DNA of 64,000 bases from Promicromonospora sp. AC04 (GTDB lineage: Bacteria > Actinomycetota > Actinomycetes > Actinomycetales > Cellulomonadaceae), in contig NZ_QBUG01000010.1 in assembly GCF_003058225.1 (NCBI RefSeq), forward strand, positions 1-64,000, written 5' to 3'. Below, in pieces: positions 2,012 to 44,339 of this stretch. Within the stretch, counting starts at the first letter, position 1. Each line of letters starts with the position of its first letter. Below the pieces are notes generated by a model. That model worked only from the letters and a program-made list of their open reading frames with translations. It did no database searches and was not told where the DNA came from. The translations under genes and the position numbers were made by a program.

Positions 2012-4642
<2,631 letters not shown>

Positions 4643-4648
4643 ACCGCT

Positions 4649-4688
4649 GGTCCCGGTGGCCCCCGCGCGCGGGCGGGCCACCGGGACC
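4649..4688. terminator. Bidirectional terminator between clpB and the GH43 gene
   Basis: Perfect 14-bp stem (4649-4662 with 4675-4688) starting seven bases after the clpB stop; the loop is itself GC-rich and self-complementary. The two flanking genes converge on it. Confidence 0.75.
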
Positions 4689-4701
4689 GGGCGAGGGCTG
4701 G

Positions 4702-6147
4702 TCAGCCCCTGCGCCAGAGCTGGGCGCCGGTGCCGTTGCACGCGTACATCGACAGGCGCGCGCCGTTGGCGGCGTTCCACTCGTAGTTGTCGAGGCACAG
4801 CCCCGAGGTCCGGTTCCGGAGCGAGAACCAGCCGTTCCCTCGGTCCTGGACCGACCAGTCCTGGTTGCTGCCGCCGTTGCAGGTCCACAGACCCACGTCG
4901 GAGTTGTTGGCCGTGGCACCGCCAAGGTTGTCGAGGCACTTGCCGGCGTAGAGGTTCTTGATCCGGTAGTAGCCGTTGACGTAGGTGAACTCCCACTTCT
5001 GAACGGAGTTCGAGCTGCACGTGTAGAGGCGCACGAGGGCGCCATCGGCCCTGTTCCACTCGTAGTCGTCGACACACTTGTCGCTGTACTGGCCGCGGAT
5101 GCCCGGCTGGCGCGTGCCGTTCGCGATGGGCTGGCCGAAGAACGGGTCACCCGTGTCCGACCAGTAGAGCTGCTGGGCCCGCGTGTGCCGGTTGGGGTCC
5201 GTGAGAGCGTCCGGCGTCGGGGTGGCGTAGTCGCGCGCGTGAAAGATCAGCATGTCGGTCACGCCGTCCTCGGCGACGGTGAAGCTGCCGTGGCCCGGAC
5301 CGTAGACGCCGTTGGCGGTCTGGAAGACGGGCGTCGACTTCTTGGTCCAGGAGGCGGGGTCCAGCAGGTTCGCCGACGCGGACGCCGAGAGGAGGCCCAG
5401 CTTGTACCGGGAGTCGGTCGCCGAAGCGGAGTACGCGATGAACACCTTCCCGTTCCTGACCAGCGGCGACGGGCCCTCGACCACGCCGGCGACGCCCTCC
5501 ATCTCCCACGAGTACGTCGGCCGGGCGATCTCGATCGCCGACGCTGTGTCGATCGTCGTCGGCGACGTCATCCGCGCCAGGTACATGTGGCTGTTGTAGC
5601 TGGTGCTCGGGCTGTCCTGCGCCCACGTGAAGTACCGGGTGCCGTTCACCGTGAACGACGCCGGGTCGAGCTGGAACGACTCCCAGCCGGTCGTCACCCG
5701 CGCGGGTGCGGTCCACGTGCCGGTGGTGGGGTCCGCCGACGTGTTCCTCATCCAGTAGAGGCGCTGCGCGAACTGTGAGGTGCTCGGTGACGCCGAGAAG
5801 TAGAGGTACCACGCGCCGTCGACGTACTGGATGTCGGGCGCCCAGATCCAGCCGCTGAGGTTGCCGGTGGACGGCGCGGTCAACGCGGTGACGGGCGTCG
5901 CGGTGGCGAGGCCCTCAAGGGTCTGGGAACGGCGCACCTCGACCCGCTTGTAGTCGGGCACGGAGGCGGTCATGTAGTAGTAGCCGTCGGTGTGCTTGTA
6001 GATCGCCGTGTCGGCGCGCTGCTGCACCAGCGGGTTCGGTACGTCGATGAACTGGGCGGCCGCGGGCGCTGCGACCAGCGCGAGGACCGACGCGGCGACG
6101 GCGAGGGCGGCGACGGTACGCCGTCGGATACGGGCGAGGATGCTCAA
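4702..6147 (-). CDS. Secreted GH43 exo/endo-arabinanase with C-terminal ricin-type (CBM13) module
   Basis: A 481-residue exported glycosidase. A signal peptide (residues 1-32, RIRRR then a hydrophobic core ending AAPAAA) precedes a five-bladed GH43 domain (about 35-340) with the early Asp in ADTAIYKHTDGYYY, WAPDIQYVDGAWYLYFSA and the probable catalytic acid in VVEGPSPLV. A ricin-B/CBM13 trefoil (about 348-480) follows with three QxW motifs (QKWEF, QDWSV, QLWRR). This order matches exo-1,5-alpha-L-arabinofuranosidases of GH43 subfamily 26, so arabinan is the likely substrate; xylan or arabinoxylan side chains are alternatives. The start is TTG at 6147, chosen because AAGGAG lies at 6153-6158. 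A LacI-type operator sits just upstream. Confidence 0.88.
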   Translation of the reverse strand: MSILARIRRRTVAALAVAASVLALVAAPAAAQFIDVPNPLVQQRADTAIYKHTDGYYYMTASVPDYKRVEVRRSQTLEGLATATPVTALTAPSTGNLSGWIWAPDIQYVDGAWYLYFSASPSTSQFAQRLYWMRNTSADPTTGTWTAPARVTTGWESFQLDPASFTVNGTRYFTWAQDSPSTSYNSHMYLARMTSPTTIDTASAIEIARPTYSWEMEGVAGVVEGPSPLVRNGKVFIAYSASATDSRYKLGLLSASASANLLDPASWTKKSTPVFQTANGVYGPGHGSFTVAEDGVTDMLIFHARDYATPTPDALTDPNRHTRAQQLYWSDTGDPFFGQPIANGTRQPGIRGQYSDKCVDDYEWNRADGALVRLYTCSSNSVQKWEFTYVNGYYRIKNLYAGKCLDNLGGATANNSDVGLWTCNGGSNQDWSVQDRGNGWFSLRNRTSGLCLDNYEWNAANGARLSMYACNGTGAQLWRRG

Positions 6148-6535
6148 GGCGACTCCTTTGTCATGTGAGCGCTAACATGGCGTACGGTGCCGCACCAGGA
6201 TGCTCCGGTCAAGGCTGGGCGTGCAGCCCGGTGTCCGCCGACCGACGGACTGCCCGTTACGCCGATCGGCCGACGCGGCGCCCCGCCCGGGTCTGCGATC
6301 CTCGGGGGGTCGACCGACGACGTAGCGGTCGGGCGTCCGAGCCGACCGACGCCAGTATGTGATGGTGTTGTGCAGGTGGCTGCCCGCTCGTTCATAACCG
6401 GAAATCCCGTACGTCCCTCTGTGTGCGGGTGAATCTGTGTGCGGGCATGCCGTGCACAGGCTCAGCACGGTAAGGGCGCGCGGGGGGCGAGCCGATGGGA
6501 GCCATTGGGAGAGGCAGACGGTCAGGGAGGGCCCG
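6148..6535. other. 388-bp divergent intergenic region
   Basis: Separates the GH43 gene (-) from the HTH regulator (+). The left end carries the GH43 ribosome binding site and the operator at 6162-6179. The remainder has no frame with convincing codon use; short frames here are arginine- and proline-rich shadows. GTGTGCGGG occurs twice at 6420-6445. No clear promoter for the plus-strand gene was recognised. Confidence 0.6.
6162..6179. promoter_or_regulatory. LacI-family operator upstream of GH43
   Basis: CATGTGAGCGCTAACATG is an 18-base palindrome with a single mismatched pair and the central CG step (AGCGCT) typical of LacI-family operators. It begins four bases beyond the GH43 ribosome binding site, where a bound repressor would block the promoter or early elongation. 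The cognate repressor is not adjacent; the LacI protein at 56268 is a distant candidate. Confidence 0.65.
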
Positions 6536-7555
6536 GTGCTGCGGTTCCACTTCACTTCGGATGATCTTGCCCGGGTTCGGATCGCGCCGGGCCCGGACCC
6601 CATGTGGGAGACGCTGCTCAGCGCCCACGTGGTGAACCAGCGTTCGGGCTCGATCCTGTTCGGGCCCTGGCGCGGGCGAGTGTTGTCCGGCCTGCCGCCG
6701 GCGGCACGGATGCTGCTGCGCCTGACGCCGCCGCAGGGCTACTCGCCGGACTTCCTCACGCCCCTGACCGGCGCCGAAGACTTCGAGGTCGGGCTCGACG
6801 CGGTGTTGTCCACACCGCCGGCCCGGCTCCGCCACGACATCTCGCGGCTCGCGCGGGGCAAGAAGCCGCATCTCTGGATGCGTGACCTCGCCGACGGGTC
6901 CGCGCCGGCCCTGCGCGGGCTGGGCGTTGCTATGCGCACCTACTACGAGCAGGCGGTCGGGCCGTACTGGAGCGGGATCCGTGCGGCCGTCGACCTCGAC
7001 CGGGCCGCGCGTACCCGCGCCTGGGTGGAGGGCGGCACCGAGCACGCGCTCCGGACCCTGCACCCCTCGATCCGGTGGGAGCATCCCGTGCTGTCGGTCT
7101 CGACGGCCGCGGAGCGGGACGTCCACCTGGCCGGTCGCGGCCTGCTGATCATCCCGTCGTACTTCTGCCATCGTGCCCCGATCTCGCTGGCCGACCCCGA
7201 GCTTCAGCCGCTGCTGCTCTACCCGATCGCCCACGAGCAGGTCTGGACGGACCGGAACTTCGAGAAACGGGCCGACGGCGGCCGTCAGCTCACCGCACTC
7301 CTCGGGCGCACGCGGGCCGCGGTGCTGCGCGCGCTCGACACCGGGGCGACGACCAGCGAGCTGGCGCAGCGGCTCGCGATCTCGCCGGCGTCGGCCTCGG
7401 AGCACGCCACGGTGCTGCGCAATGCCGGGCTCATCGCCAGCGAGCGTGAGCGCAACACCGTGATCCACGCGCTGACCCCGTTGGGCCGGACCTTGCTGGA
7501 CGGCGGCGGGCGAGTCCCGACGCCGCTGACGGCTACTGCAGCAGATCCTCTGTGA
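6536..7555 (+). CDS. ArsR-like winged-helix transcriptional regulator
   Basis: A 339-residue protein of a Streptomyces/actinobacterial regulator type: a long N-terminal region without catalytic motifs beginning MLRFHFTSDDLARVRIA, and a C-terminal winged helix (about residues 255-325) reading TTSELAQRLAISPASASEHATVLRNAGLI, which is ArsR-like in the recognition helix. The effector and targets are unknown. GTG at 6536 is chosen because GGGAGG lies seven bases upstream and the conserved RFHFT motif starts immediately. The last 23 bases overlap the convergent gene at 7533. It is divergent from the GH43 enzyme, but nothing shows that it controls it. Confidence 0.75.
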   Translation: MLRFHFTSDDLARVRIAPGPDPMWETLLSAHVVNQRSGSILFGPWRGRVLSGLPPAARMLLRLTPPQGYSPDFLTPLTGAEDFEVGLDAVLSTPPARLRHDISRLARGKKPHLWMRDLADGSAPALRGLGVAMRTYYEQAVGPYWSGIRAAVDLDRAARTRAWVEGGTEHALRTLHPSIRWEHPVLSVSTAAERDVHLAGRGLLIIPSYFCHRAPISLADPELQPLLLYPIAHEQVWTDRNFEKRADGGRQLTALLGRTRAAVLRALDTGATTSELAQRLAISPASASEHATVLRNAGLIASERERNTVIHALTPLGRTLLDGGGRVPTPLTATAADPL

Positions 7556-9470
7556 TCGGTTCCGCCGTGGTCGCCAGGCACAGGCCGACGCGGTCGCCGT
7601 CGCCCCACGACTCCTCGCTGGGCCCCCAGACCACGTAGCTCACCGAGTTCGTGACCGGGCTCGTGCGCGCCGTCGGACCGAGCTGCTTGGTGCCGCACAC
7701 CTGCGCGATGCGCTTGTCGACCTCGTCCCGGCCCGGCCAGACGGCGGCGTCGGCGAAGTCGGTGCGGCCCACCACCTGCGCGGTGTGCGAGGCATCGCAG
7801 GGAACCGCGAGCACCTCGGAGATCTCCCCGTCCGCGGGAACGGTCTCCACGCACGAGCCGAGCACCAGCTGCAGCGGGTGAACCTCCTGGGGCTCCGCGA
7901 TCATCGCGTCGATCGGCTCCCACTGCTGCCTGCTGACCACGTTCGCGATGATGGCGATCACCGCTACGACGGCCACCACGGCCAGCACCGCTCCGCCGAT
8001 CAGCGCGAACCGACGCCGCTTCGCGGTCTCGTCGGCCGGCGTGGGCGGGCGCCAGCCGGCGTACGAGGCCTCGGGCGCGTAGTCGTGCACGGCCGGGAAC
8101 GAGTGCGCCGAACCGCCGCGCGAAACGGGGAACGGCGACGGCGGCGTGGCGGAAGGCTGCGCCTGCGTCGGCGCGACCGGCTGATGCTGCGGCGGGGCGG
8201 TCTGCGTCGGGAACGGGCTCGGTGGCGCAGGCTCTGGCGGGGTGCGCGTCGCGGGCGGCGCGAAGAGTTCCGGCGTCTCGGCCGGAACTTTCTCCCCGGC
8301 GGACGGTTCCTCCGGGGGAGCTTCCTTGGCGGGAACTTCTTTGGTGGGGGCCTCGTCCGCGGGCGCGGCGGGGGGCCCATCCGCGGGCGCGCCTGCAGGA
8401 GAGGCCTCGTCCTCGGCCTTCTGCTCGTCGGCCTTCTGCCCCTCGGGCTTCTCGACCTCACTTGCGACGGTGCGCGGCCCCAGCGCCTTCTTGTGCGCTG
8501 CGGCGATCGCCGCGAAGGAGAGGGCCTTGAAGTCGAACGTCTCGTCGACGTCCGGGGCCGCCTCACTGCTCGACGGCGACTTGGCGCCGGCCTCGCCCTG
8601 ATCGACGGCGGCGGGCGCGGCGGGTTTGCTGTCGGCGGCGCCGTTCGCCCGCAGCTCCACTGCTTCCCTCCGCTCCGTCGCGGGTTCGGGGCTCGGCGCC
8701 GCTGCTTCCGCGGGTTCGGGCGTCGACCGCGCGGTCGGCGGAACGACGGCGATCTCCTCGGTGGGCGCCTGGTTAGGCTGCGGACGGCTCGGGGATCTCG
8801 GCGCGGGCTTGGTCGGCGTGGCGGGCTCAGCAGGTTCGGCGGGCGCGGCGGGTTCCGCGGCCTGCGGTTCGGGCGTGGGCTCCGCCTCTGCGGCGGGCTC
8901 GGCCAGGGTCGGCTCGGCCTCCGGGGCGAGCTTCGCTTCACCCTTGGCTGCCGCCTCCACACTCTCTGCCTCAGGCTCCGACGCGGACGACGCCTCCGCC
9001 GTCGGCGCGGGCGAGGAATCCTCGTCGGTCTCCGAAGTCGTGGTCTCCGAAGTCGTGGTCTCCGAAGTCGTGGTTTCTGGAGCCGTGGTTTCTGGAGCCG
9101 CATTCTCGGCGGCCGCCGTCTTGGCGCCCGCGATCTTGGCGACCGGGGTCTCCACGGCCGCCGACTCTGCGGTCTCGTCGCCCTTGGTCGGCACCTCCGC
9201 GGTCGGCACCTCCGCGGTTGGCACCTCCGCGGTCGGCGCCGACTCAATGATCTTGTCCGCAGGCTCGGACGCCTCGCCATCGGCAGCCTCGGGAGCGTCG
9301 CCGGCCTGCCCTGACGTCTCCGCGCCGCTCGCGCCGTCGTCCTTGCCGGTGAGGGTGTCGGGCGCGGGATCGGGCTCCGACCCGACCGCGGACGCCTTCG
9401 CTACGGGATCCTTTGCAGCAACCTCGGCGACTTCGGTGGCGGCCGGGGACTGGTCGGGCTTCGACGTCAT
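7533..9470 (-). CDS. Septum-formation-family membrane protein with long Ala/Pro/Glu-rich repeat tail
   Basis: A 645-residue type II-like membrane protein. Residues 1-480 are cytoplasmic low-complexity Ala/Pro/Glu sequence, with two arrays of 15-bp units (TTSET-type at 9031-9105, AEVPT-type at 9186-9240). One transmembrane helix (about 486-510, FALIGGAVLAVVAVVAVIAI) leads to an outer domain of about 120 residues (LGSCVETV...AVPCDASHTAQVVG...VCGTKQLG) that matches the actinobacterial Septum_form-type domain with paired cysteines. A role near the division septum is a family-level inference. ATG at 9470 (MTSKPDQSPAA) is preferred over an upstream in-frame ATG because composition changes there. 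The tail is far longer than in most members. Confidence 0.7.
   Translation of the reverse strand: MTSKPDQSPAATEVAEVAAKDPVAKASAVGSEPDPAPDTLTGKDDGASGAETSGQAGDAPEAADGEASEPADKIIESAPTAEVPTAEVPTAEVPTKGDETAESAAVETPVAKIAGAKTAAAENAAPETTAPETTTSETTTSETTTSETDEDSSPAPTAEASSASEPEAESVEAAAKGEAKLAPEAEPTLAEPAAEAEPTPEPQAAEPAAPAEPAEPATPTKPAPRSPSRPQPNQAPTEEIAVVPPTARSTPEPAEAAAPSPEPATERREAVELRANGAADSKPAAPAAVDQGEAGAKSPSSSEAAPDVDETFDFKALSFAAIAAAHKKALGPRTVASEVEKPEGQKADEQKAEDEASPAGAPADGPPAAPADEAPTKEVPAKEAPPEEPSAGEKVPAETPELFAPPATRTPPEPAPPSPFPTQTAPPQHQPVAPTQAQPSATPPSPFPVSRGGSAHSFPAVHDYAPEASYAGWRPPTPADETAKRRRFALIGGAVLAVVAVVAVIAIIANVVSRQQWEPIDAMIAEPQEVHPLQLVLGSCVETVPADGEISEVLAVPCDASHTAQVVGRTDFADAAVWPGRDEVDKRIAQVCGTKQLGPTARTSPVTNSVSYVVWGPSEESWGDGDRVGLCLATTAEPITEDLLQ
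9031..9240 (-). repeat. Two arrays of 15-bp in-frame repeats
   Basis: Five 15-bp units at 9031-9105 (TCCGAAGTCGTGGTC three times, then two TCTGGAGCCG variants) and about four at 9186-9240 (GGTCGGCACCTCCGC). Units are multiples of three, so copy-number change would preserve the frame of the septum-formation-family protein. Confidence 0.9.
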
Positions 9471-41269: not shown

Positions 41270-41376
41270 GCCGTCGAACAGGACGGGAGCGAAAGTCGTG
41301 GCGGTCGCGACTCCACATCTGGCCGGCGGGCGGCGTCTTAAGAGGGCAAGCACGTTCCGCTCACCTGGAGGTCCCC

Positions 41377-41931
41377 GTGACCAGCTCCGCCCGCACCCTC
41401 CGCTCCAAGACCATCCGCCTCACCGCGATCGGCGTCGCGGCCACGACCCTGTGCGTCGGCGGCGCCGGCCTGGCCGCCGCGGCCAACCCGAGCTCGAGCT
41501 TCGGCCAGGCGGTCGGCACCGCGGCACACGCCGCCGGCGTCGACTGGTCCGACATGCCCGAGGGCTACACCCAGGCGCAGTACGAGGCGTTCTGGGGCGC
41601 CGGGTACAGCCCCGAGGACCAGGCGGAGCTGGAGGAGCTCTGGTCGCTCGAGCCCACCGAGGCCAAGTCCCGCGCCGGCCAGATGATCCTCGACGGCGAG
41701 CAGCTCCCGTTCGCGCCCGGCACCCACACCACGCCGGAGCTGCCGGCGGACGAGCAGGCGGCGATCGCCGCCTTCTTCGACGCCGGGTACACGGCCGACG
41801 ACGTCGAGGCCCTGAACGACCTGTGGGACACCGAGCACGTCGAGACCAAGGCGCGTGCCGGCCAGATGATCCTCGACGGCGAGGAGCTGCCCATCGGCCC
41901 CGCCGGCGCAGCCACCTCGGCCGCCAGCTGA
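41377..41931 (+). CDS. Exported protein with two ~48-residue AGYT/LW/RAGQMILDGE repeats
   Basis: A 184-residue protein I do not recognise as a named family. A hydrophobic N-terminal segment (residues 14-37, TAIGVAATTLCVGGAGLAAAA) looks like a signal peptide or anchor. Two repeats follow: 64-112 (YTQAQYEAFWGAGYSPEDQ...LW...AKSRAGQMILDGEQLP) and 126-172 (QAAIAAFFDAGYTADD...LW...TKARAGQMILDGEELP). The region 41-170 is clearly paralogous to the outer domain of the protein at 43644 (shared AGVDWSxMPxGYTxxQY). GTG 41377 follows GGAGG. It begins a four-gene run with amidoligase, sigma factor and one-TM protein; the next gene may start four bases after its stop. Confidence 0.75.
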   Translation: MTSSARTLRSKTIRLTAIGVAATTLCVGGAGLAAAANPSSSFGQAVGTAAHAAGVDWSDMPEGYTQAQYEAFWGAGYSPEDQAELEELWSLEPTEAKSRAGQMILDGEQLPFAPGTHTTPELPADEQAAIAAFFDAGYTADDVEALNDLWDTEHVETKARAGQMILDGEELPIGPAGAATSAAS

Positions 41932-41935
41932 TCCT

Positions 41936-43042
41936 GTGCGCCTGGCACCGCTGACGACTCGCCAGGAGGCGACCATCAACACCCTCACGCTGCGCATCGG
42001 CTTCGAGATCGAGCTGCTCGCGCCAGCCGGCTCCGACCGGCAGGTGCTGGCGGACGCTCTTGCCGCCCGCCGCGCCGGCCGGGTGCTCCGGTCGTTCCAC
42101 ACCGACAGCGAGCCGTCAGCGGTGCCAGGCGTCGGGGTGTTCCGGCACCTGTCCCCCGCGTTCGACGTGGTCGACGGCGCCGGTGCCCCGGTGGTGCGGC
42201 TCGTGGACGACATCACCATCGTGTCCGACCTGGCCGGCACGACCACCCGGCCCGGGCACCGGGGGTGGTACCGGGTGCTGTGCGACGAGCCTCGCCTGCT
42301 ACGTCTGATCGAGGGGCACATCAACCCGGGCGCGGCCCTGCCCGACGTCCTGGCCCCCGTGGCCGAGCTGTTCGGCACCCGGGTCGAGCTGAGGGGCGGC
42401 GCGGCGCGGGTGAACGACGCCGCGGGTGCCACTGTCGCCGTCGTCATGCCGCTGCCCGCCGGGCGCGAGCGGCCCTGCGAGGTGATCACCCCGCCGATCG
42501 CCGCGGACCACTGCCGGGTGCTCGACGAGCTGCTCACCCCCGCGCGGGACCTCGGGTTCACCGTGCCCGCCGAGGCCGCGGTCCACCTGCACCTGGACGG
42601 CGCGCCCTTCCGGCGGTCTGCGGCGTTCGCCAACCTGGTCCGGCTGTTCGGACACTGGCGGGAACCGCTGTGGGAGGCGCTGGGCACGAACGACGCGTGC
42701 CGGCGCCTGGCGCCGCTGCCCGCCGAGCTGCTCCAGCTCGTGGAACGAGATGACCTGTCGTGGCCCGAGCTGGGCGAGGCCGCACGCGGGATCGGCCTGA
42801 CGAAGTACGCCGACGTGAACCTCACCCAGCTCGTCGCTCCGCGTCCGGCCCGCGACACCGTCGAGGTGCGGATCCTGCCCGGCGCGCTGGACGCCTCGGA
42901 CGTCGTCCGCGGGGCCGCGCTCGTCGAGCGCCTCGTGCGGCGCTGCCTCGACGACACCCCGATACCGCGGCCCGACGGCGGCGCGGCGCACGACCCAGCA
43001 GGGGCACTCCTGGCCCTGGCGACGGCAGGTGCCGGCCGATGA
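41936..43042 (+). CDS. Amidoligase-family enzyme
   Basis: A protein of 355-368 residues with the signatures of the amidoligase (COOH-NH2 ligase-like, glutamine-synthetase fold) family: GFEIELLAP near the N-terminus, the paired histidines of AAVHLHLDGAPF, LTKYADVNLTQL and VEVRILPGALDASDV near the C-terminus. Members are predicted to form amide bonds on peptides or proteins with ATP. The start is unusual: GTG 41936 has no ribosome binding site, while a perfect AGGAGG (41964-41969) stands five bases before an in-frame ATC at 41975. Coupling to the preceding stop could explain GTG; an ATC start is the alternative. Its stop overlaps the sigma-factor ATG. Confidence 0.78.
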   Translation: MRLAPLTTRQEATINTLTLRIGFEIELLAPAGSDRQVLADALAARRAGRVLRSFHTDSEPSAVPGVGVFRHLSPAFDVVDGAGAPVVRLVDDITIVSDLAGTTTRPGHRGWYRVLCDEPRLLRLIEGHINPGAALPDVLAPVAELFGTRVELRGGAARVNDAAGATVAVVMPLPAGRERPCEVITPPIAADHCRVLDELLTPARDLGFTVPAEAAVHLHLDGAPFRRSAAFANLVRLFGHWREPLWEALGTNDACRRLAPLPAELLQLVERDDLSWPELGEAARGIGLTKYADVNLTQLVAPRPARDTVEVRILPGALDASDVVRGAALVERLVRRCLDDTPIPRPDGGAAHDPAGALLALATAGAGR

Positions 43043-43647
43043 CGACCTGGCTGAAGGCCACCGGCCCGGACAGCACGCCCACGCGGTGGGTGGTGGAGGC
43101 ACCGGCGCCCGCTCCTGACGCCCCTGACGCCGACGACGTCGACCCGGCCCGAACGCTCGACGACCTGGTGCGCACGCACCTGCCCGGGCTGATCCGGTAC
43201 GCGACCGTGCTCGTCGGGGACCAGCACACCGCCGCCGACCTGGTTCAGGAGGTGCTGCTGCGTGCTCACCAGCGGTGGCACCGGATCACTCTGACCGAGC
43301 GTCCCGACCTGTACCTGCGGCGCATGGTCACCAACGAGCACCTGTCGTGGCGCCGCCGCTGGCACGTGCGCATGGTCCGGCCCACCGCCGACGACGCACT
43401 CGTCGGCCACGCAGGCACCGCGGGCGACCACGCGGAGGACCTCGCCCAGGAGGACGCCATGTGGCATCGCCTCGCACAGCTTCCGGCCCGCCAGCGTACG
43501 GTGCTCGTCCTGCGGTACTACGAGGGGCTGGCCGACGCCGAGATCGCGACCGTGCTCGGCACCTCGCCGGCCACCGTCCGCTCCCACGCCTCGCGCGCCC
43601 TGACCACCCTCCGGGACACCGACACGACCTTCACGGAGACGCCATGA
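43039..43647 (+). CDS. ECF-like (SigE family) RNA polymerase sigma factor
   Basis: A 202-residue sigma-70-family factor with region 2 (about 45-110: VRTHLPGLIRYATVLVGDQHTAADLVQEVLLRAHQRW) and region 4 (about 145-192: LPARQRTVLVLRYYEGLADAEIATVLGTSPATVRSHASRAL). It lacks region 3, as ECF-type factors do, and is closest to the actinobacterial SigE-family group. The stop shares ATGA with the following one-TM protein, the usual arrangement for a sigma/anti-sigma pair. The -35/-10 it reads is unknown, and I see no promoter repeat that would prove autoregulation. Confidence 0.92.
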   Translation: MTTWLKATGPDSTPTRWVVEAPAPAPDAPDADDVDPARTLDDLVRTHLPGLIRYATVLVGDQHTAADLVQEVLLRAHQRWHRITLTERPDLYLRRMVTNEHLSWRRRWHVRMVRPTADDALVGHAGTAGDHAEDLAQEDAMWHRLAQLPARQRTVLVLRYYEGLADAEIATVLGTSPATVRSHASRALTTLRDTDTTFTETP

Positions 43648-44339
43648 CCCAGGACCGTCCCACCGGCACGCCGGTGCCAGAGCCCCGGCCGGGGGGCAAC
43701 GCCCGCCAGGACGACCTCGCCGAGCGCGTCACAGCGGCCCTGCGCTCGCGCGAGCCCGACGCCGCCGGCACCGCGGCCACCGCGCGGCGGATCGCTGCCC
43801 GTCTCGAAGCGGCCGACGGCCGGAGCGAAGTCGTGACACCGTTCGCCCGGCGCGCGGGCACGATCGCGGTCACCGGCGTGGTCGTGTCGGCCCTGGGCGT
43901 GGTCGGTGCGGGTGCCGCAGCCGCGGCCAATCCCTACACGGAGTTCGCGGCAGCGGTCGACGGCGTCGCGCACGCCGTCGGCGTCGACTGGTCCTCGATG
44001 CCCGACGGCTACACACGCGAGCAGTACGACGCGTTCTGGGGCGCCGAGTACACGGCGGCGGACCTGGAGGAGCTCCGCGACCTGTGGAACGTCGACTCGC
44101 TGGAGGCCAAGGCGCGCGCCGGTCAGATGATCCTCGACGGCGAGACCCCCCCGGTGGCACCGGACCCGACCAAGGAGGTGCCCTTCCTCGATCCGGCGGA
44201 TCAGGAGGTCTTCCGGGAGGCCGGGTACACGATCGAGGACGCCCAGCAGCTCGCCGAGCTGTGGCAGATCGACATCTACGAGGCGAAGGCGCGCGCCGCG
44301 GACATGCTGCTCGACGGCGAGACGCCCCCGGTGCCCTGA
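43644..44339 (+). CDS. One-TM putative anti-sigma factor with repeat outer domain
   Basis: A 231-residue membrane protein: a cytoplasmic N-terminal 70 residues (ARQDDLAERVTAALRSREPDAAGTAATARRIAARLEAADG, helical, charged), one TM helix (71-95) and an outer domain with two repeats (123-170 and 183-230), each with GYT, LW and AKARA..(M/L)LDGE. The outer domain is paralogous to the protein at 41377. There is no HXXXCXXC zinc motif, so it is not a ZAS anti-sigma factor; the role rests on ATGA coupling to the sigma gene and topology. It might sense a cell-surface state and release the sigma factor. Confidence 0.65.
   Translation: MTQDRPTGTPVPEPRPGGNARQDDLAERVTAALRSREPDAAGTAATARRIAARLEAADGRSEVVTPFARRAGTIAVTGVVVSALGVVGAGAAAAANPYTEFAAAVDGVAHAVGVDWSSMPDGYTREQYDAFWGAEYTAADLEELRDLWNVDSLEAKARAGQMILDGETPPVAPDPTKEVPFLDPADQEVFREAGYTIEDAQQLAELWQIDIYEAKARAADMLLDGETPPVP

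Follow-up and report, generated by a model that had tools for sequence, protein, structure and literature searches.

In Bacillus subtilis, as described in PMC4183432, the extracytoplasmic function (ECF) sigma factor sigmaV is paired with a membrane anti-sigma factor, RsiV, that carries a sensing ectodomain, and the gene for the enzyme OatA is transcribed by sigmaV. This is the nearest described circuit to the operon analyzed here, a run of four plus-strand genes (g1 to g4, 41377-44339) in a 64,000-nucleotide stretch of the Promicromonospora sp. AC04 genome (contig NZ_QBUG01000010.1, positions 1 to 64,000), which we refer to as the window. The genes encode a secreted protein built from a repeat module that we call REP, an amidoligase, a sigma factor and a membrane REP protein, and the operon likewise combines an ECF sigma factor, a candidate membrane anti-sigma factor and an enzyme. 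Unlike in sigmaV-RsiV-OatA, the enzyme is an amidoligase of the GCS fold, and the sensor module is also secreted free from the same operon.

A further point of comparison is the microviridin (graspetide) precursor AMdnA, which according to PMC5934393 has three cores served by a single ligase. Repeated units in one gene and one ligase are common to both systems, whereas the microviridin ligase is of the ATP-grasp type and the window operon has a GCS-fold ligase, folded modules as predicted, and a membrane sensor. Compared with pupylation (PafA/Dop), REP stands apart in being exported, predicted to be folded, and repetitive, and a Pup-like GGE or GGQ end was not found in the REP loci read, which have ends such as SAAS, TSGS, GETPPVP and LPVAP. 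In the available text of the matches listed by our literature search, this operon of soil actinobacteria is not described. It would represent a new kind of ECF circuit, in which the outer module of the sensor is in addition produced in free form, and it contains an exported repeat domain with no significant match in the libraries searched.

An initial annotation, made from the letters of the window alone, had described gaps of +4, -4 and -4 bases between the four genes, a paralogous outer domain of two units in g1 and g4, and an ECF-like sigma factor. All of this holds: the open-frame coordinates give these gaps for g1/g2, g2/g3 and g3/g4, g1 matches residues 65-230 of g4 with 54% identity, and g3 passes the SigE-family model TIGR02983 (146.1 bits, cut-off 141.55) and contains Sigma70_r2 and r4_2 in Pfam. 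The closest named relatives of the window genome are Promicromonospora species. In the seven related loci with all three gaps readable, the gaps are 3-13, -4 and -4, where the first range ends at the g2 match start, which is not always the start codon; in L009 they are 7 and -4, the last gene being cut off. The g2 protein matches PF12224 (Amidoligase_2) at 45.7 bits, with a cut-off of 22, and has the GCS/GS catalytic fold with its acidic, histidine and arginine active-site residues present. To our knowledge, substrates have been assigned to few PF12224 amidoligases.

REP and the amidoligase form a near-obligate pair

Comparison across genomes shows that REP and the amidoligase are a near-obligate pair. 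Within the genus, the amidoligase was found in 8 of 13 Promicromonospora genomes. Across 221 genomes of the family it is present in 51 and REP in 56, with every amidoligase genome also REP-positive (51/51); the REP-only genomes are G004, G015, G051, G094 and G168, and reading the G094 locus did not reproduce its weak match. In 396 genomes sampled across the order, 22 have the amidoligase, 22 have REP and 21 have both, the exceptions being G312, amidoligase-only with a weak partial match (E-value 9e-4), and G393, REP-only and 76% complete. In a phylum-wide sample, also of 396 genomes, REP was found in three: the window genome, G853, which lies outside the order and has four REP units followed by an amidoligase, and G782, a weak match for which the fetched stretch gave no amidoligase match. 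In ten genomes an additional REP gene, of a single type, lies outside the operon (L125-L134), and all ten are amidoligase-positive elsewhere.

Gene order was read at 92 loci (L049, L071-L143, L186-L202 and L212; the window is not counted). REP lies directly upstream of the amidoligase on the same strand in 70 of 72 cases, the two misses being L108, where the contig ends, and the first of the copies in L085; the distance from the end of the REP match to the amidoligase match is below 150 bases in 69 of the 70. This pairing with an exported REP directly upstream distinguishes the window-type enzyme from other PF12224 enzymes, to which it is alike in profile and GCS/GS fold. Of 59 sigma genes, 58 have REP directly behind them, a membrane REP in the loci read by eye, with the exception (L143) again at a contig edge. 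Complete loci of the family mostly read REP-amidoligase-sigma-REP. In the outgroup family f14, the order is sigma-REP-REP-amidoligase in 6 of 11 loci, and inspection by eye shows an arginine-rich inner part followed by a membrane span in the first REP and a signal peptide in the second; in L187, L189 and L196 a single REP, membrane-type by eye, sits between sigma and amidoligase. Outgroup f15 has REP4-amidoligase without sigma in 4 of 4 loci, and the sigma-less pair is also seen in G853. REP genes contain from 1 to 5 units, against one ligase. Because the order recurs in dozens of loci, the four-gene arrangement is far beyond chance, and the same neighborhood comparison excludes a possibility raised in the initial annotation, that the amidoligase and sigma genes never co-occur in related genomes.

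At one locus (L080, genome G043, 2530-9430), 6.9 kb lies between REP and the amidoligase, with genes for an AAA_16 ATPase and for a protein that joins EAD1 to a trypsin-like part, types familiar from conflict systems. Among the flank clusters examined, nothing suggests that the operon belongs to a larger cluster, as the annotated flanking genes are unrelated (luciferase-like monooxygenase, DnaG, SpoU) and flanking genes recur only within subgroups. Clusters were formed from stop-to-stop frames, and the largest, seen in 47 loci and mostly on the opposite strand, was taken to be antisense artefacts; ten representatives of the others were scanned, of which 4 matched a family. Altogether 15 flanking frames were scanned with Pfam; 9 matched a family and none of these is a wall enzyme. 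A frame for an ATP-binding cassette (ABC) transporter lies ~3.6 kb from the amidoligase in seven f14 loci.

A search of the window genome with g4 returned only g4 itself and g1 at an E-value of 0.001. Each has two units of ~50 residues, whose starts are 61 (g1) and 59 (g4) residues apart. In an AlphaFold model of g4 (mean predicted local distance difference test score, pLDDT, of 60.7), each unit is predicted to form three helices, with ten-residue means mostly 75-90, and the inner segment and membrane span are of low confidence. The initial annotation had left room for the repeat to be a characterized domain; no Pfam or NCBIfam family passed its cut-off for g1 or g4, a Pfam scan of 26 units and six multi-unit REP proteins was likewise empty above cut-off, a PDB sequence search with the repeat, run up to an E-value of 10, returned two TFIIA chains only (best E 0.28), and Foldseek with the g4 model gave no match at E <= 0.001, with UBA-like chains among the insignificant rows. 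Two families chosen for local resemblance to the repeat were compared by hhalign, and neither did better than decoys: CW_7 (PF08230), tried also in circularly permuted form and with only 9 CW_7 units compared, and Lipoprotein_Ltp (PF07553), with 22 overlapping Ltp stretches compared.

Building a hidden Markov model (HMM) of the unit had been proposed in the initial annotation. Our profile, made from 26 diverse units, finds 291 units in the 92 fetched loci and 300 when four further loci (L291-L294) are included; conservation was counted on the HMM hits, with units too diverged to be hit left uncounted. Among the 291 units, a tryptophan is kept in 99.7%, a lysine in 288/291, an aspartate in 94.5% and glycine at two positions in 97%, and a proline is present in 287/287 of the rows that reach its position. 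The lysine is kept in 152/152 units of the 70 REP genes that immediately precede an amidoligase, and in 141/148 units of other REP genes: 102/104 where REP only follows sigma, 5/9 in L291-L294, where there is no amidoligase match beside REP, and 34/35 in the remaining genes. All seven lysine-less units sit in REP genes with no amidoligase immediately behind them: L202 (5058-6149) and L293 contribute two each, and L292, L294 and L120, which is a fragment, contribute one each. The tryptophan is present in all 152 units before an amidoligase and in 147 of 148 elsewhere; as it is kept in 299 of 300 units overall, loss of the lysine probably leaves the fold intact. Since the seven exceptions come from five genes, the link between lysine and amidoligase is suggestive, not strong.

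A candidate promoter and the sigma factor

Upstream of g1, the window and eight Promicromonospora and Myceligenerans loci share aCTCCACA, a spacer of 16 or 17 bases, and CGTCTT, with small variants of this box in L009 and L010. The pattern CT[CG][CA]ACA-N15-17-CGT[CT] is present in 41/41 of the scored loci from the family in which a sigma gene can be seen and in 6/5200 shuffled upstream stretches. For the nine family loci with no sigma in view, the box is found in L049, L071, L097 and L114, whose contigs end just behind the amidoligase, and is missing from L086, L109, L110, L111 and L113, the last of which is also cut. Two cases fell outside the scoring: the second L085 copy, which has a similar box, and L083, where REP lies in two frames and there is no good one. 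Of the outgroup loci with a window-type sigma, L202 carries the box and L186 has none in the 120 bases available; the other ten scored outgroup loci lack it. A second type of REP gene, found alone (L125-L134) or with an amidoligase (L109-L111, L113), occurs without sigma and box.

Across 13 Promicromonospora genomes the strict box occurs at 9 sites (reversed control, 6). These are the operon in 7 of 8 operon-bearing genomes, G001 having a variant, the collapsed operon of G004 described below, and one site elsewhere (G011); the four genomes with neither gene have 0 sites. The window genome has one strict site and two with a looser pattern. A wider regulon was considered and rejected: the looser pattern gave 13 sites, 8 at the operon (G004 included) and 5 elsewhere, against 14 in the reversed control, so that the 5 non-operon sites are at chance level. 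The outgroup operons have a GCAAC-type box in place of the CTCCACA/CGTC-like box of the window type, with GGCAACC-N16-CGTC close to where the sigma match begins in 8 of 9 sigma-first loci (the miss is L189), a count taken without a shuffle control. Based on the boxes, the operon may be under the control of its own sigma factor in both lineages.

The 52 window-type operon sigmas form one clade, and this clade and the CTCCACA/CGTC-like box set them apart from other SigE-family (TIGR02983) sigmas. Long-branch rows were dropped from the trees (10 paralog rows in the thinned tree and 5 in the outgroup tree, duplicates included), and the later trees keep 21 of the 52 window-type operon rows. In the tree with outgroups, eight f14 operon sigmas form a separate clade, and a paralog group joins the window-type sigmas first (support 97/94). 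In an approximately unbiased (AU) test a single origin of both operon sigma types is not rejected (p-AU 0.144), and the thinned tree without outgroups does not decide the number of recruitments. A defence or mobile origin was considered and rejected. PADLOC turned up nothing beyond weak matches of CARF type to g3 (E 0.001). The amidoligase has no match in plasmid or phage collections, and of 22 stretches of viral contigs that fit a REP pattern, 0 were confirmed.

The g4 protein has the layout of an anti-sigma factor: it adjoins the sigma gene with a 4-base overlap, and its ~70 inner residues are followed by a single hydrophobic segment (residues 74-92) and the outer repeat units. From gene order, topology and recurrence, we infer that it is a candidate anti-sigma factor. 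The initial annotation had proposed a surface-sensing circuit, and its functional coupling is borne out by the co-occurrence of the genes, the sigma-then-REP order (58/59) and the promoter box; the part assigned to g4 stays at candidate level, and the further idea that the free and the anchored repeat proteins compete for, or are modified by, one partner stays conjectural. The membrane segment of g4 ends, at 43900-43940, in an AAAAANP-like stretch shared with the g1 signal, so g4, although anchored, may retain a signal-peptidase site.

What the amidoligase may act on

A tentative reading, to which we give somewhat less than even confidence, is that the operon is a self-contained, autoregulated envelope-signaling unit whose effector is the REP-amidoligase pair, with the amidoligase acting on the REP modules. 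In such a unit, g4 would hold g3 with its inner ~70 residues and sense the outside through modules that are also released as g1. The amidoligase, predicted to be an ATP-dependent carboxylate-amine ligase of the GCS/GS fold, would modify the REP modules, with the unit lysine as the first candidate site; the anchored copy in g4 would gauge how much of the secreted copy there is, what state it is in or what ligand it carries, and the sigma factor, once released, would renew the REP-amidoligase pair. We favor REP as the substrate because the pair is strict even without the regulator, because the number of units varies against one enzyme, as would be expected for a modular substrate, because a membrane REP can replace the secreted one beside the amidoligase, and because the lysine is kept in every unit beside the amidoligase. 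With its strict genetic partner, a candidate residue that is conserved and a candidate promoter, the operon makes the question of the amidoligase substrate directly testable. The broader proposal, that REP and the amidoligase are an unrecognized actinobacterial protein-modification system, acting on a lysine of tandem three-helix modules before export and wired, perhaps twice, to an autoregulated sigma factor with a membrane gauge made of the same module, is speculative and in our estimate rather unlikely in full.

Several points weigh against modification of REP in an autoregulated circuit. The amidoligase has no evident export signal and REP is exported; modification would therefore precede or accompany export. 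The lysine may instead be structural or ligand-binding, and few events tie it to the amidoligase, with sensor-type units keeping it in 102/104. Three loci (L291, L292 and L293, from G306, G319 and G289) have a sigma gene and a membrane-type REP with no amidoligase beside them, their genomes having an amidoligase elsewhere. On the regulatory side, g4 has no match to any known anti-sigma family in Pfam or NCBIfam, and L186, with a window-type sigma, has no box in the 120 bases available. The box pattern was picked after these sequences had been viewed, which makes the contrast with sigma-less loci the fairer test, and the outgroup box count lacks a shuffle control. The trees hint that the sigma factor was recruited twice independently, and the AU test is compatible with one origin.

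The most serious alternative is that the amidoligase alters a cytoplasmic envelope precursor, of peptidoglycan or another wall polymer, with g1 as a wall-associated effector, g4 as the sensor and the REP modules binding the modified or unmodified wall outside the cytoplasm. Such a circuit would resemble sigmaV-RsiV-OatA, in which the sigma factor turns on an enzyme that modifies the wall. We give this somewhat less weight than action on REP, even though it best fits the topology of a cytoplasmic enzyme, exported binding modules and a sensor ectodomain, explains the same coupling and promoter data, and suits units predicted to be small three-helix modules. What it explains less directly is the adjacency of REP and amidoligase and the fact that the lysine is strictest there; moreover, REP has no significant match to a wall-binding family, the CW_7 and Ltp comparisons found nothing, and none of the 9 Pfam-matched flanking frames is a wall enzyme. 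By a narrow margin we favor action of the amidoligase on REP as the best-supported mechanism, with the envelope precursor fitting the compartments better.

The remaining explanations carry less weight. The amidoligase could make a soluble metabolite that REP and the sigma pair only sense or bind, as GCS/GS-fold members such as glutamate-cysteine ligase make small molecules; this is improbable, since no pathway gene recurs beside the amidoligase among the annotated clusters and REP adjoins the amidoligase even without the regulator. About as improbable is a pathway like those of ribosomally synthesized and post-translationally modified peptides (RiPPs), in which REP would be a multi-core precursor and the amidoligase would add amide cross-links to a secreted peptide. 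The precursor-ligase order with varying unit number and the ABC transporter frame of the seven f14 loci agree with it, but the REP units resemble folded three-helix domains in the predicted model, the ligase does not belong to the ATP-grasp type, the flank clusters examined show no recurrent transporter or protease in the window's family, and the REP module doubles as the ectodomain of a membrane protein. Long antisense frames in the window could suggest that the genes are chance neighbors or an open-frame artefact of high G+C content, an explanation that is refuted by protein conservation, profile matches, recurrence across families and the co-occurrence counts and whose probability we take to be negligible.

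Start codon and layout of the operon in the window

The open frame of g2 begins with GTG at 41936, and comparison of amidoligase starts points to a different codon. At the start, 61 of 70 amidoligase sequences could be aligned, 47 of them from the window's family with the window included; in these 47, the homologous codon is GTG in 27, ATC in 15, ATG in 1 and another codon in 4, with GTG in most Cellulomonas-type loci. All 15 ATC sequences have GGAG shortly upstream (15/15), and in L009 (P. citrea, 5994-6060) no ATG, GTG or TTG of the amidoligase frame lies ahead of the catalytic motif. Most members of the ATC clade do have an upstream GTG, ATG or TTG able to serve. The amidoligase of the window's clade thus probably starts with AUC, which in the window is the ATC at 41975; the first gap is therefore probably 43 bases, not 4. 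In L202 (G354) the amidoligase is split into two open frames (3502-4517).

Table 1 Features of the operon in the window.
Feature	Position	Strand	Basis or remark
Candidate ECF-type promoter, -35 like ACTCCACA, 16-base spacer, -10 like CGTCTT	41310..41339	+	seen upstream of g1 in window and relatives
g1, secreted REP protein	41377..41931	+	hydrophobic signal residues 17-35, then 2 repeat units
g1 repeat unit 1	41557..41709	+	first of two ~50-residue units
g1 repeat unit 2	41740..41892	+	second of two ~50-residue units
AGGAGG ribosome-binding-like stretch, 5 bases, then ATC as probable g2 start	41964..41977	+	codon alignment
g2, amidoligase, Amidoligase_2 (PF12224), GCS/GS fold	41936..43042	+	likely true start ATC 41975
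g3, SigE-family ECF sigma factor	43039..43647	+	TIGR02983, regions 2 and 4 (Sigma70_r2, r4_2)
g4, membrane REP protein, candidate anti-sigma factor	43644..44339	+	REP-after-sigma order, topology
g4 inner segment, residues 1-69, candidate sigma-binding part	43644..43850	+	kept in relatives; low-confidence helices
g4 hydrophobic segment, residues 74-92	43863..43919	+	mean hydropathy 2.07 over 19 residues
g4 repeat unit 1	44001..44153	+	first of two ~50-residue units
g4 repeat unit 2	44178..44330	+	second of two ~50-residue units

The neighbors of the operon in the window are a SpoU methylase and a major facilitator superfamily (MFS) protein, and a 749-residue antisense open frame on the minus strand (41338-43587), which we take to be an effect of high G+C content, spans the operon. 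Collapsed forms of the operon occur in two genomes. In G004 (L116) the start of g1 runs into a g4-like end behind the box, with the amidoligase and sigma genes gone from the stretch read, and G051 (L117) has a similar short single REP gene behind the promoter box; the simplest reading of both is a deletion between the paralogous repeats.

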